Positions 10,391 to 16,099 of a stretch of 51,655 nt of DNA are shown piece after piece; the first letter of the stretch is position 1, and every line of letters starts with the position of its first letter. The notes below the pieces were generated by a model. It ran no database searches, was not told the origin of the DNA, and worked only from the letters and a program-made list of their open reading frames with translations. Position numbers and translations under genes: made by a program. The stretch lies in contig JAILEL010000417.1 of NCBI GenBank assembly GCA_024687845.1, positions 1 to 51,655 on the forward strand, given 5' to 3'. Origin of the DNA: Eubacterium sp. Its GTDB lineage: Bacteria > Bacillota_A > Clostridia > Lachnospirales > Lachnospiraceae.

Positions 10391-12520
10391 ATGAACTACA
10401 AATTCTATGGGTGGCAGAATGCAGTGATTCCACCAGTTAGTGAAGAGTATAAGGGTGTCTACAATCCAAGAAGACTATATGATGCCTTGAGCCATATCTG
10501 GTGCGAATATACCTGCGCGCCAAGACTCAGAAATGGCTGGTCTGAAGAGGATAAGACACTAGGTCAGTGTTCAATAACTGCGTTTCTTGCGCAGGATATT
10601 TTTGGCGGCAGGGTTTATGGAATTCCGAGAGAAGGCGGTACATTCCATTGCTACAACGTAGTTGGAGATGTGGTTTTTGATCTGACGAGTGAGCAGTTCA
10701 AAGATGAAGTTTTAGACTATACAGACAATCCTGAACAGGAACGAGAAGTACATTTTGCAAAGGAGGAAAAGCTTCAGCGATATGAGTATCTGAAGCATGA
10801 ACTTAAGAAATATCTGCAGGGACATATTCCTACAGAACTTCCGGGAGGCTTTTTCATTTATCAAAATGATGAAAAGGAAAAACTCCTTTTTGCCGAAGAA
10901 AATGTAATCAAAATGTATGGCTGTAATACTCTTGAAGAATTCAGAGAATATACTGGTAATTCCTTCCGCGGAATGGTTCATCCAGAGGATCTTCATAAGA
11001 TTGAAAATCAGATACAGGCGCAAACTGTATTTGGTGAGAAACGTCATGATTATGTCAGATACAGAATCTTGACGAAACAGGGAGAAATCAAATACATTGA
11101 GGACTTTGGACATCTGTTACATGGCAAAAACGGACTCAGTTATTTCTATGTTTTCATTGTGGATGTTGATCAGAATGAATATCTGAACCGGAACAGAAAT
11201 TCCTACGCTGAGGCAGAAATCCTGTCACTGAACCAGGAGACAGATTCCCTCACAGGTCTTTTCAATATGTCCTTTTTCTATAATAATGCTCAGGTTTTGC
11301 TTTCAAAACCAGAAAATAGAAGAAGAAGTGCATCGATTGTGCATTTTGATATTCCGAATTTTAAACTCTTTAATGAGAGAAATGGATTCAGAATCGGAGA
11401 TGAGCTTCTCTGTGAGCTCGCTAAGACAATCAGAAATGAATTCTCAAATGGAATTGTAGCCAGATTTTCAGATGACCATTTTGTTGTATTCTCAATGGAA
11501 GACAGGGAGTCTGTAAATGCAAAGGTGGAGGCTGTTTATAAGAAAATCATGCTTTCTGAGGATTCGGTCAAACGCGTCCGTATCAAGGCAGGAATCTTCT
11601 ATATGGATGATCGAATCACAGAAATCGGTCTTGCCTGCGACCATGCCCGGCTTGCCTGCAATAGCATAAAACATAGACATGATGTTTTCTGCTGTATATA
11701 TGATGAACATTTAAGAGAAACTCTCAGGAAAAAACAGTATGTTGTTGATCATATAGATGAAGCTATCGAAAACGAATTCATTAAGGTTTTCTATCAGCCT
11801 GTTGTTCGAGTAAAAACTGGTGAGATCTGTGGATACGAAGCACTTGTAAGGTGGATAGACCCAAGAGTTGGCGTTCTTTCACCGGCAGATTTTATAGAAA
11901 CGCTGGAACAGTATCATCTGATTCATAAGATTGATATGTATGTGATCGAAAAAGTATGCCAGGACTACAATCGAGTTATAGCAGCAGGTGATGTGATAGT
12001 GCCGGCATCTATCAATTTCTCAAGACTTGATTTTGAACTTTGTGATATATTCGGCTATGTTGAGGAAGTAAGACAACGCTATAATGTTCCGCGAAATATG
12101 CTTGATCTTGAGATTACGGAAAGCGTTCTTGATGGCAACTTTACACGTATTAAGGAAGAATGCCAGCGAATGAGAGATCTGGGATATCAGATATGGCTGG
12201 ATGATTTCGGAAGTGGATATTCATCGCTTAATACTTTGACACAGTATTCATTTGATGTGTTGAAGCTGGATATGGTATTTCTGAGAAGCTTTGAAACCAA
12301 CCCTAAAACCAAGCTTCTTATGAAATATATTGTAAAGGGTGCAAGGGAACTTGGACCTCTTCCGCTTTGCGAGGGAGTGGAAACTGAAGAACAGTATGAA
12401 TTCCTTAAAGAAATAGGCTGTGAGAAAGCTCAGGGCTACTATTTTGGAAAGCCTATGCCATATGAAGAAACAAAAGCGTTTTCAAAATCTAAAGGTATGA
12501 AGTGGGAAGAAAACAAGTAA
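10391..12520 (+). CDS. YunG-PAS-degenerate GGDEF-EAL protein, probable c-di-GMP phosphodiesterase
   Basis: Four domains are visible in 709 residues. Residues about 10-105 resemble the YunG family (GWSEEDKTLGQCSITAFLAQ, then FGG and FDLTSEQF), a small stand-alone protein in bacilli with no established function. Residues about 150-265 form a PAS-like domain (FRGMVHPEDL). A GGDEF domain (TGLFNMSFFYNN onward) follows, but its active motif is replaced by S360-D-D-H-F364, so cyclase activity is unlikely. The EAL domain (about 450-700) keeps E483-A-L485, EITES, DDFGSGYSS, KLD and CEGVETEEQ, so it should hydrolyse c-di-GMP. No membrane segment is seen; the protein is likely cytosolic. It lies 42 bases after trxB with a GGGGG site, and is followed by a terminator. 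Confidence 0.9.
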   Translation: MNYKFYGWQNAVIPPVSEEYKGVYNPRRLYDALSHIWCEYTCAPRLRNGWSEEDKTLGQCSITAFLAQDIFGGRVYGIPREGGTFHCYNVVGDVVFDLTSEQFKDEVLDYTDNPEQEREVHFAKEEKLQRYEYLKHELKKYLQGHIPTELPGGFFIYQNDEKEKLLFAEENVIKMYGCNTLEEFREYTGNSFRGMVHPEDLHKIENQIQAQTVFGEKRHDYVRYRILTKQGEIKYIEDFGHLLHGKNGLSYFYVFIVDVDQNEYLNRNRNSYAEAEILSLNQETDSLTGLFNMSFFYNNAQVLLSKPENRRRSASIVHFDIPNFKLFNERNGFRIGDELLCELAKTIRNEFSNGIVARFSDDHFVVFSMEDRESVNAKVEAVYKKIMLSEDSVKRVRIKAGIFYMDDRITEIGLACDHARLACNSIKHRHDVFCCIYDEHLRETLRKKQYVVDHIDEAIENEFIKVFYQPVVRVKTGEICGYEALVRWIDPRVGVLSPADFIETLEQYHLIHKIDMYVIEKVCQDYNRVIAAGDVIVPASINFSRLDFELCDIFGYVEEVRQRYNVPRNMLDLEITESVLDGNFTRIKEECQRMRDLGYQIWLDDFGSGYSSLNTLTQYSFDVLKLDMVFLRSFETNPKTKLLMKYIVKGARELGPLPLCEGVETEEQYEFLKEIGCEKAQGYYFGKPMPYEETKAFSKSKGMKWEENK

Positions 12521-12538
12521 ACATATAGGAAAGTATTT

Positions 12539-12585
12539 AGCTCATTGGGAGCGGTAAGAACCGTTTCTGATGGGCTATTATTTTT
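12539..12585 (+). terminator. terminator after the EAL gene
   Basis: A long hairpin with G-T wobbles (AGCTCAT paired with ATGGGCT at the base, GCGGT/ACCGT at the tip, loop AAGA) runs from 12539 to 12576 and is followed by ATTATTTTT. Confidence 0.7.
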
Positions 12586-12630: not shown

Positions 12631-12673
12631 ATAGGTTTAACCTATTGACATAGTAGGTTGGTTGTGTTATTAT
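12631..12673 (+). promoter_or_regulatory. promoter of the metY-cysK unit with overlapping inverted-repeat operator
   Basis: TTGACA (12645-12650) and TATTAT (12668-12673) are 17 bases apart. Immediately upstream is a perfect palindrome, ATAGGTT-T-AACCTAT (12631-12645), touching the -35 box, and a third half-site TAGGTT lies inside the spacer (12654-12659). Three half-sites around a -35 box suggest a repressor. Rrf2-type regulators of sulfur genes (CymR) are the obvious candidates from the pathway, but the motif alone does not identify the protein. Transcription would start near 12680. Confidence 0.68.
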
Positions 12674-12746
12674 CCATTCATCGTAACAAATATGAGCTAA
12701 GTTATACAGAGTTACGAATCATCAAAGAGGAGAGGAGACGCTTAAA

Positions 12747-12857
12747 ATGTTAGTAAACAGGAACCAGAATTTTAATATGATGTGTTGTCGAATGCTTAAT
12801 TCCCGGGCATGTAGTATGGCTGGTGTCTTGTCGTGTCGATGTAAGCGCCTGAAATAA
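12747..12857 (+). CDS. Cys-rich leader peptide (36 aa) of the metY-cysK attenuator
   Basis: An ATG at 12747 is preceded by GAGGAGAGGAG with 9 bases of spacing, a strong ribosome site. The frame ends at TAA 12855-12857. Five of its 36 residues are cysteine, at 13, 14, 22, 30 and 32, all TGT codons; the peptide includes MMCCRM and SCRCKR. Such density of one rare amino acid directly before a terminator and cysteine-synthesis genes points to a regulatory leader rather than a functional protein. It contains no other recognisable feature. Confidence 0.8.
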   Translation: MLVNRNQNFNMMCCRMLNSRACSMAGVLSCRCKRLK

Positions 12858-12869
12858 ACTAAGCCATTT

Positions 12870-12902
12870 GCCCGGGAAACAAAAATCCCGGGCTTTCTTT
12901 TT
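12870..12902 (+). terminator. attenuator terminator before metY
   Basis: GCCCGGGA (12870-12877), loop AACAAAAA, TCCCGGGC (12886-12893) and then TTTCTTTTT. It is an intrinsic terminator placed 120 bases before the metY start, inside the transcription unit. From 12903 to 13022 the sequence is AT-rich with no gene; AAAGGAGA serves metY. Confidence 0.9.
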
Positions 12903-13022: not shown

Positions 13023-14306
13023 ATGGGCGATTATAGATTTGAAACATTACAGGTACACGTAGGACAGGAACAGGCAGATTCGGCAACAGATTCAAGAGCA
13101 GTTCCTATTTATCAGACAACCTCTTATGTATTCCATAACAGCCAGCATGCTGCTGACAGATTCGGACTTGCAGATGCAGGAAATATTTACGGAAGACTTA
13201 CCAATTCAACACAGGATGTGCTTGAGAAGAGAGTGGCAGCGCTTGAAGGCGGAAGTGCAGCACTTGCACTTGCATCAGGAGCAGCAGCAATCACATATAC
13301 TATTCAGGCACTTGCTGCAAATGGTGGACATGTTGTTTCTCAGAAAACAATCTATGGTGGAAGCTTCAACCTGCTTTCACATACACTTCCACAGTATGGA
13401 ATCAATACAACATTTGTAGATGCTCATAATCTTGAAGAAATTGAAAATGCAATCCAGGACAATACAAGACTCATTTATCTTGAAACACTTGGTAACCCGA
13501 ACAGTGACATTCCTGATATCGAGGAAATTGCAAAAATAGCTCATAAGCATGGACTTCCACTGGTAATCGATAATACCTTCGGAACTCCATTTCTTATCAG
13601 ACCTATCGAGCATGGTGCTGATATAGTAGTTCACTCAGCAACCAAATTTTTAGGTGGACATGGTACTACTCTTGGGGGTATCATAGTGGAGTCAGGTAAG
13701 TTTGACTGGAAGGCTTCAGGCAAATATCCTAATATAGCAGATGCGAATCCAAGCTATCATGGCATTTCATTTGCAGATGCAGTAGGGCCTGCAGCGTTTG
13801 TTACATATATCAGAGCAATTCTTCTGAGAGATACAGGAGCAACTCTTTCACCATTTAATGCATTTCTTCTGCTTCAGGGTGTTGAGACACTGTCACTCAG
13901 ACTTGAGAGACATGCTGAGAATACAAAGAAGGTTGTAGAGTTCCTGAATAATCATCCAAAGGTTGAAAAGGTTAATCATCCGTCACTGGCTGATCATCCT
14001 GATCATGAGCTTTATAAGAAGTACTTCCCAAATGGTGGGGCATCTATTTTCACCTTTGATATTAAGGGTGGAAAGGAGCAGGCATGGAAATTTATCGATA
14101 GTCTTAAGATCTTCTCCCTCCTGGCAAATGTAGCAGATGTTAAAAGTCTTGTTATCCATCCTGCATCAACAACTCATTCACAGCTTTCTGAAGAAGAACT
14201 TCTGGATCAGAATATCAAGCCTGGAACTATTCGTCTGTCAATTGGAACAGAACATGTGGATGATATAATTGCAGATCTTTCAAATGCATTTGATGCTATT
14301 GACTAA
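13023..14306 (+). CDS. metY: O-acetylhomoserine sulfhydrylase / aminocarboxypropyltransferase
   Basis: This 427-residue PLP enzyme of the Cys/Met metabolism family joins O-acetylhomoserine with sulfide (or methanethiol) to give homocysteine (or methionine). The start ETLQVHVGQEQADSATDSRA is typical of MetY. The PLP lysine is K208 in HSATKFLGGHG, and the IYGRLTNSTQ and SRAVPIYQTTSY blocks are present. Length fits the longer MetY group (about 425) rather than CGS/MetB (about 380). AAAGGAGA precedes the ATG. cysK follows after 54 bases, with no terminator between. Control is likely at two levels: the operator at the promoter and the Cys-codon attenuator. Confidence 0.95.
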   Translation: MGDYRFETLQVHVGQEQADSATDSRAVPIYQTTSYVFHNSQHAADRFGLADAGNIYGRLTNSTQDVLEKRVAALEGGSAALALASGAAAITYTIQALAANGGHVVSQKTIYGGSFNLLSHTLPQYGINTTFVDAHNLEEIENAIQDNTRLIYLETLGNPNSDIPDIEEIAKIAHKHGLPLVIDNTFGTPFLIRPIEHGADIVVHSATKFLGGHGTTLGGIIVESGKFDWKASGKYPNIADANPSYHGISFADAVGPAAFVTYIRAILLRDTGATLSPFNAFLLLQGVETLSLRLERHAENTKKVVEFLNNHPKVEKVNHPSLADHPDHELYKKYFPNGGASIFTFDIKGGKEQAWKFIDSLKIFSLLANVADVKSLVIHPASTTHSQLSEEELLDQNIKPGTIRLSIGTEHVDDIIADLSNAFDAID

Positions 14307-14360: not shown

Positions 14361-15293
14361 ATGGGAAAAATATATAAAGGAACAAGCGAGCTTATAGGAA
14401 ATACTCCTCTTGTTGAGGTAGTAAACATTGAGAAGGAACTGGATCTGAAAGCAACTATTCTTGTTAAGCTGGAGTATTTTAATCCGGCAGGAAGCGTAAA
14501 GGATCGTATCGCAAAGGCGATGATTGAAGATGCGCAGGAAAAGGGACTCTTAAAGGAAGGTTCAGTAATTATAGAGCCTACTTCAGGTAATACAGGAATT
14601 GGTCTTGCAGCACTTGCAGCTTCTCTGGGATACAGAATAATACTTACAATGCCTGAAACTATGAGTGTTGAAAGAAGGAATATACTTAAGAATTATGGCG
14701 CAGAAATCGTTCTTACAGAGGGCGCAAAGGGAATGAAGGGAGCTATTGCAAAAGCAGAAGAGCTTGCAAAGGAGATTCCAAACAGCTTCATTCCTGGTCA
14801 GTTTGTAAACCCTGCAAATCCTGCAATTCATAAGGCTACAACTGGACCAGAGATCTGGAATGACACAGATGGAAAGGTTGATATATTTATAGCAGGAGTT
14901 GGAACAGGTGGAACAGTAACAGGAACAGGCTCATACCTTAAGGAGCAGAATCCTGATATTAAGGTAGTGGCACTTGAACCAGAGGATTCACCAGTTCTTT
15001 CAGAAGGAAAAGCAGGTGCACATAAGATTCAGGGAATAGGTGCAGGTTTCGTGCCAGAGACACTTGATACAGATGTCTATGACGAAGTATTTAAATCATC
15101 TAACGAAGATGCATTTAAGACAGCAAAGCTTCTTGCAAAGAAAGAAGGAATTTCAGTGGGAATTTCTTCGGGAGCAGCTCTTTTTGGAGCAATCACTCTT
15201 GCTAAAAGACCAGAAAATGAAGGGAAGGTGATCGTAGCACTTCTCCCAGATAGTGGAGACAGATACTACTCAACACCACTCTTTACTGAATAA
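14361..15293 (+). CDS. cysK: cysteine synthase A (O-acetylserine sulfhydrylase)
   Basis: This 310-residue PLP enzyme makes cysteine from O-acetylserine and sulfide. The PLP lysine is K47 in NPAGSVKDRIA; the substrate loop PTSGNTGIGLA is at about residue 73; the phosphate-binding glycine loop GVGTGGTVTGTG is at about residue 178. Length and motifs are those of CysK, not the shorter CysM. It follows metY in the same unit, so one leader would control both direct sulfide-fixing enzymes, matching a cysteine signal. AAAGGA precedes the ATG. A REP-like hairpin follows at 15362. Confidence 0.96.
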   Translation: MGKIYKGTSELIGNTPLVEVVNIEKELDLKATILVKLEYFNPAGSVKDRIAKAMIEDAQEKGLLKEGSVIIEPTSGNTGIGLAALAASLGYRIILTMPETMSVERRNILKNYGAEIVLTEGAKGMKGAIAKAEELAKEIPNSFIPGQFVNPANPAIHKATTGPEIWNDTDGKVDIFIAGVGTGGTVTGTGSYLKEQNPDIKVVALEPEDSPVLSEGKAGAHKIQGIGAGFVPETLDTDVYDEVFKSSNEDAFKTAKLLAKKEGISVGISSGAALFGAITLAKRPENEGKVIVALLPDSGDRYYSTPLFTE

Positions 15294-16025: not shown

Positions 16026-16099
16026 TGCGTGCTAGAGGATTCGAACCCCCGACCTTTTGGTCCGTAGCCAAACGCTCTATCCAGCTGAGCTAAGCACGC
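16026..16099 (-). tRNA. tRNA-Arg (anticodon ACG)
   Basis: A complete 74-base cloverleaf on the minus strand: acceptor GCGTGCT/AGCACGC with discriminator A, D-stem GCTC/GAGC, anticodon stem TTTGG/CCAAA with loop CTACGGA (anticodon ACG, read as ICG for CGU/CGC/CGA), and T-arm GGGGG-TTCGAAT-CCTCT. CCA is not encoded. Confidence 0.96.

Follow-up and report, generated by a model that had tools for sequence, protein, structure and literature searches.

Introduction

T-boxes are the usual form of control in the Firmicutes. The polycysteine ORFs of mycobacteria are reportedly leaderless, going by the title of a 2020 study by Canestrari. In the Rhodobacterales, the uORFC-8-2 motif is a short ORF that carries Cys codons in tandem, most often at positions 14–15, with an intrinsic terminator downstream; it is proposed to act as a ribosome-mediated attenuator that responds to tRNA-Cys charging and is reported only upstream of cysS in this alphaproteobacterial order (PMC8632094). 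In the Actinobacteria, Cys leaders located before cys operons have runs of Cys codons near the stop codon and no conserved terminator (PMC1262725). For the Bacilli, histidine leader peptides of hisS paralogs have been described (PMC2965389). The cysteine T-boxes of Clostridium bind tRNA directly and do not need translation, and control of cysteine genes in the clostridia examined to date is mostly attributed to T-boxes; for some clostridial cysK genes, which lack a T-box, the mode of control is given as not known (PMC2940859).

The locus presented here lies in a 51,655-nt stretch of a Eubacterium sp. contig (hereafter the window, to which all coordinates refer), where a short leader ORF with five Cys codons precedes metY and cysK. 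With a probability of roughly 85%, judging from sequence comparisons, the leader senses charged tRNA-Cys and attenuates transcription by way of the translating ribosome, and it probably switches the downstream genes on when cysteine is short. Like uORFC-8-2, it combines a short ORF, tandem Cys codons, and an intrinsic terminator, but the clostridial Cys pair precedes the antiterminator strand, whereas the Cys codons of uORFC-8-2 are placed inside the first stem, and the genes involved are metY, cysK, NlpA-type, and others from Clostridia as opposed to cysS from alphaproteobacteria (PMC8632094). There was no cysS among the genes identified downstream of the leaders. The leaders of the Actinobacteria are likewise Cys-coding ORFs before cysteine genes, though the clostridial form differs from them in having an SD-led ORF, an early Cys pair, an intrinsic terminator, and a covarying antiterminator (PMC1262725). 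Leader-peptide control within the Firmicutes is shared with the His leaders of the Bacilli, which differ in the amino acid (histidine) and in the genes (PMC2965389). With the cysteine T-boxes of Clostridium, the leader would share a tRNA-Cys charging signal, a terminator/antiterminator outcome, and an overlap at cysK, but those elements bind the tRNA directly, whereas the clostridial leader is proposed to need translation (PMC2940859).

A search limited to open-access literature did not turn up any description of Cys leaders from Clostridia. In its predicted working, the leader is a classical attenuator, and it is the arrangement, the gene set, and the host group that are new. A family of Cys leaders before metY, cysK, and NlpA-type transporter genes would fill part of the gap posed by cysK genes without a T-box, while the set of leaders provides candidates ready for testing and would extend the small number of leader-peptide attenuators reported from the Firmicutes.

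Results and discussion

The leader ORF (12747–12857, + strand, as are the other features of the leader region) is a short unannotated gene of 36 codons and encodes a 36-aa peptide (MLVNRNQNFNMMCCRMLNSRACSMAGVLSCRCKRLK) that is conserved in relatives as M-C-C-R-M-x-x-S-R-A. It is preceded by an SD-like region (GAGGAGAGGAG, 12727–12737) and has Cys residues at positions 13, 14, 22, 30, and 32, in line with the original prediction of an ORF with a strong ribosome site and five TGT codons. The first two of these residues form a TGT TGT pair (12783–12788), proposed from its conservation to be the sensor codons, which is followed by a CGAATG spacer (12789–12794) and, starting 12 nt past the pair, by TCCCGGGCA. 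The antiterminator 5′ strand (12801–12821) extends from TCCCGGGCA to ATGGCT and pairs with the 3′ strand (12862–12877), which overlaps the 5′ arm of an intrinsic terminator (12870–12902) composed of a stem-loop (12870–12893) and a T-rich tract. Three CCCGGG segments had been predicted, and these were located at 12802–12807, 12871–12876, and 12887–12892. The leader stop codon does adjoin the antiterminator 3′ strand, with four bases between the end of the stop (12857) and the start of AGCCAT (12862). Scans of four leaders gave no Pfam or NCBIfam match, and no candidate emerged when one 42-aa leader was used to query predicted proteins; very short ORFs are often left uncalled.

Relatives were collected with a MetY scan that yielded 80 loci, many from the Lachnospiraceae (82–89% identity in the best MetY segment). 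The same leader core, counted in the form TGT TGT CGA ATG nnn nnn TCC CGG or as a one-Cys variant, was present upstream of metY in 30 of 81 cases (the window and 80 relatives) and absent in 51, with one of the 81 regions (L062) having <40 nt of upstream sequence. A leader-peptide profile, centred on the L042 genome, was used on overlapping sets of family, genus, class, and phylum genomes and matched 18/398, 17/64, 12/391, and 4/348 genomes, respectively; after two family matches and one phylum match were judged false, 16/398 and 3/348 were accepted as true. The matches in L116 and L165 look false. Within the 398 family genomes, the pattern CGAATGN6TCCCGGGCA had 13 matches (reversed control, 0), of which 11 were leaders that coincide with profile matches and two (L152 and L163) had no leader. 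Four secondary match places (L091, L101, L102, and the second one in L100) were also without a leader. Once the spurious L013-1273, L148-83, and L119 had been dropped, 74 distinct leaders were counted. Counts based on 69 sequences omit L152 and L163, as well as L016, L097, and L110 (no 3′ anchor from the script), and scans based on 65 sequences omit the long-spacer L001, L099, L134, and L136 (the 3′ anchor of L099 is probably wrong).

Because the protein anchor required R-M-x-x-S-R, seven true variants (L094, L098, L106, L108, L117, L120, and L128) were missed and, along with L164, which was fetched later, are outside all counts. The S-R codons are changed in these seven variants, and L106 and L108 stop directly past the core. 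Other Cys-rich short ORFs, different from the core, occur before metY in several loci, including L025, L027, L037, L041, and L074. The metY leaders in L027 (60–283) and L037 (2780–3003) have 9 to 10 Cys codons, with CGAATG adjoining TGT twice; the script found no terminator for either, and they are of a different Cys-leader type.

As the peptide profile favours Cys, conservation of the Cys codons was assessed using a nucleotide-only anchor (shorter form) positioned outside of these codons, which identified 74 sites among all fetched loci. A Cys codon (TGT or TGC) occurred one or two codons 5′ of CGA at 72 of these sites, some of which are at loci that came from the Cys-favouring profile, with L152 and L163 as the two exceptions, and the pair had Cys at 30/30 sites when only loci recovered through MetY were considered. 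The hairpins and the Cys codons are therefore conserved jointly, as opposed to the Cys codons being lost where the hairpins are kept. An SD-like 5-mer preceded a start in the Cys frame at 72 of the 74 sites, compared to 8 and 3 for the other frames. TGT and TGC were exchanged for one another at the Cys pair, and insertions 5′ of CGA consisted of whole codons. Located 3′ of the core, CGATGT occurred in 41 leaders and was in frame at 40 of 42 sites, and the terminal Cys codon was conserved in 34 of the 40 leaders long enough to reach the position; this codon may matter in some way.

The Arg codon that follows the Cys pair was CGA in 74/74 leaders and in all eight uncounted variants (the seven anchor misses and L164), with L120 possessing CGAACG in place of CGAATG; CGA accounts for 3.8% of the 931 Arg codons in the downstream genes. 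The invariant codon is located outside of the antiterminator helices. Fixation at the nucleotide level would be expected of a structured RNA that binds a metabolite or protein, in which sensing would fall to the fixed TGTTGTCGAATG and the three-way junction, and the overlap with a translated ORF would be incidental. Such an RNA would also fit an antiterminator that is large and stable (mean, −42.5 kcal/mol; n = 69) and that remains the minimum-energy structure in 40 of 65 full-length folds without a ribosome. It is unlikely, nevertheless, given the in-frame, SD-preceded start, the synonymous TGT/TGC exchange and whole-codon insertions before CGA, and the terminal CGATGT held in frame, to which may be added that Rfam had no match at gathering score over the window leader and 20 leader loci. 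The same was true of 20 of the 51 leaderless metY loci. Two weak sub-threshold Rfam matches (E = 0.27 and 0.39) were set aside, and covariance models for the T-box and for the SAM (S-box) riboswitch had no match at gathering score in the window leader and 20 leader loci. Two further ideas, that CGAATG pairs with CATTTG in the 3′ strand and that RNA polymerase pauses at the Cys pair, were each weighed by eye and dropped.

The conservation of R and M after the pair exceeds the need of Cys sensing and could instead reflect nascent-peptide arrest, with M-C-C-R-M stalling the ribosome on a small molecule and not on a lack of Cys-tRNA. This conservation is partly the result of row selection, because the anchors demanded S-R and the profile was biased toward these residues. 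Arrest peptides possess extended conserved sequences that contact the tunnel, unlike the variable codons observed 5′ of the pair (which have a weak third-position excess of 128 differences versus 103 and 99), and in 23 of 72 anchored leaders one of the two Cys positions has Trp, Met, Tyr, Leu, Phe, or Gly instead, such that arrest is considered very unlikely.

Attenuation by charged tRNA-Cys would involve two competing structures, and both the predicted terminator and the predicted competing pairing, including ATGGCT/AGCCAT, are present in the window. Folded alone, the terminator (12870–12893) has an energy of −17.4 kcal/mol, and the competing domain (12801–12809 with 12869–12877 and 12816–12821 with 12862–12867) folds at −31.9 kcal/mol. 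The two are mutually exclusive, as the pairing of 12801–12821 with 12862–12877 uses up the terminator 5′ arm. Among the relatives, the antiterminator 5′ strand covaries with the terminator 5′ arm, and single-sequence folds formed the outer helix in 69/69 sequences, the second helix in 60/69, and two inner hairpins in 55/69, with the antiterminator in most relatives being a three-way junction that holds the second half of the ORF. The T tract of L016 is not clear.

Compensatory changes in the antiterminator pairing were found in relatives. When the anchors were set on invariant letters, the three adjoining pairs formed in 69, 69, and 60 of 69 sequences for a total of 198, compared to 187.3 for column shuffles (sd, 1.5; maximum, 196) and 187.3 for row shuffles (maximum, 194) of the same flanking pairs, while, of 10,000 permutations with randomly re-paired strands, 3 attained the observed duplex energy (14 of 10,000 for the second helix), all of these tests ignoring the relatedness of the sequences. 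Shuffles of the interior reduced stability to a moderate degree only (mean fold z, −1.4; z below −2 in only 19/69). Read by eye, compensatory changes included CCCGGACA/TGTCCGGG in five leaders (L020, L023, L032, L131, and L140) and CCCGGGTA/TACCCGGG in L075, along with two changes in the outer helix from outside the anchor, TTCCGGGCA/TGCCCGGAA in the variant L128 and TCCCGAACA/TGTTCGGGA in L137. RNAalifold applied to a MAFFT alignment (59 of the 69 sequences) recovered the outer helix only, with 98.5% of cells paired (shuffle maximum, 97.6%) and three double-change pairs (shuffle maximum, 3), and for this reason the inner helices were counted per sequence.

By toeprint practice, a ribosome covers 14 nt 5′ and 15 nt 3′ of the first P-site base, and this span was masked at successive codons in 65 leaders to be folded. 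For nascent folds, where the RNA ends past the antiterminator 3′ strand, the antiterminator was present in 65/65 leaders with the A site at either Cys codon, in 65 at CGA, in 44 at the next codon, and in none at two to eleven codons past CGA, and the outer helix was allowed again in 62/64 at twelve codons past CGA and in 57/65 at the stop. For full-length folds, the antiterminator was the minimum-energy structure in 48 and 46 of 65 leaders at the Cys codons. This number fell to 32 at CGA, 16 one codon later, and 0 at two to eleven codons past CGA, then rose again to 23–42 of about 64 leaders at codons +12 to +17; at the stop, 17/65 formed the antiterminator and 48 the terminator.

The original prediction had a ribosome held at the late Cys codons turn the genes on and one at the stop turn them off, a contrast that was not reproduced, with the late Cys codons and the stop behaving alike in the masking scans. 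The early pair is favoured because these are nearly the last codons at which a waiting ribosome leaves the strand free, and conservation and the masking scans together point to this pair (residues 13–14) as the likely sensor in preference to the late Cys codons. The broader claim of a cysteine attenuator has the support of conservation, covariation, reading frame, and gene set, with the sensor shifted to the early pair.

According to the proposed mechanism, the leader ORF would be translated while it is being transcribed. When Cys-tRNA is scarce, the ribosome would wait with the Cys pair (codons 13–14) in the A site and its leading edge just short of TCCCGGGCA, allowing TCCCGGGCA and ATGGC to pair with the 5′ side of the terminator and form the antiterminator, which in most relatives two inner hairpins would complete as a three-way junction, and read-through into metY-cysK would follow. 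When Cys-tRNA is plentiful, the ribosome would move onto the segment from TCCCGGGCA to ATGGC, blocking the antiterminator for as long as it is there, and the terminator would end transcription. Timing of the ribosome relative to the polymerase would be important. In the window itself, the terminator is the minimum-energy fold of the full-length RNA wherever the ribosome is placed, and the switch there must therefore rely on the antiterminator forming first. Since late ribosome positions allow the outer helix, efficient termination would need a ribosome on the strand as the terminator is made. Further, because the antiterminator forms in 40/65 ribosome-free full-length folds, the model predicts read-through when the leader is not translated.

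The genes downstream in the window were identified as metY (13023–14306, + strand; TIGR01326, 629.3 bits, above cut-off; PF01053), an O-acetylhomoserine/O-acetylserine sulfhydrylase, and cysK (14361–15293, + strand; TIGR01139, 451.3 bits, above cut-off), encoding cysteine synthase A. Overall, 55 of the 74 leaders occur before metY and 17 before other genes, and for 2 the fetched sequence contains no gene. NlpA lipoproteins account for seven of the 17 non-metY targets, and a further solute-binding protein has an NlpA domain. CysK is the target once, and a CysK fragment with a glutamate-cysteine ligase family gene after it is another, as is a cystathionine lyase/synthase family protein. The remainder are M20 PepT-like peptidases (three, of which one was scanned and two resemble it in sequence), amino-acid-type ABC permeases (two, one of them scanned and the other similar), and a single ProW-like permease. 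NlpA-type, CysK, or cystathionine-family proteins thus represent 11/17 of these targets, and the peptidase and ProW-like permease targets have no obvious link to sulfur. Scores for the MetQ models were below the cut-offs for the NlpA targets, making “NlpA-type” the safe name. The prediction that the leader controls sulfide-fixing enzymes was correct in identifying metY and cysK but is too narrow for the family, as NlpA-type transporter genes and others also have the leader upstream. In L138 (1535–2876), the leader is followed by a 114-aa piece that resembles the C-terminal part of CysK and then by a glutamate-cysteine ligase family gene, and the operon reads as broken or misassembled. A tRNA gene is present on the minus strand of the window (16026–16099), downstream of cysK.

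The leader is preceded in the window by a promoter, TTGACA-17-TATTAT (12645–12673, + strand; 11/12 consensus matches), and a promoter-like string (TTGA-N18-20-TA) occurs upstream of 59/74 leaders. Positioned over the −35 element is a palindrome (AACCTATTGACATAGTAGGTT, 12639–12659, + strand), which we take to resemble CymR/IscR-type sites and which is perhaps an operator of this type (Rrf2 family). The CymR and IscR motifs are themselves described as alike (PMC3828012). Using a consensus derived from the same sequences in which it was counted, the palindrome was found within 5 mismatches in 62/74 leader promoters, 0/72 control stretches, and 25/50 testable leaderless metY upstream regions. Pieces of the palindrome used as a literature text query gave no relevant title among the matches listed.

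Its presence in 25 of the 50 leaderless regions indicates that the palindrome stands without the leader and, together with its frequency at leader promoters, would fit regulation by an Rrf2-type repressor alone, with the leader having a small effect. Of the explanations considered, this is the most improbable, since the leader frame, Cys codons, and alternative pairings are all maintained and 12/74 leaders lack a palindrome within 5 mismatches. Beyond attenuation by charged tRNA-Cys itself, the palindrome could instead contribute a second layer of control. In an extended version of the attenuator, a family distinct from the described Cys leaders would serve several unlinked operons of the Clostridia, the three-way-junction antiterminator would be on by default and off when a ribosome passes the Cys pair, the fixed CGA-AUG step would be part of sensing, either by being decoded slowly or by a contact at the RNA level, and the common −35 palindrome would add repressor control; this combination is offered tentatively, with the odds somewhat against it as a whole.

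Directly past the upstream gene (10391–12520) is a long terminator-like hairpin (12538–12577), and for this reason the metY promoter is probably independent of that gene. A second palindrome (ATAGGTTTAACCTAT, 12631–12645) shares sequence with the left half of the −35 palindrome, so that the window has three half-sites.
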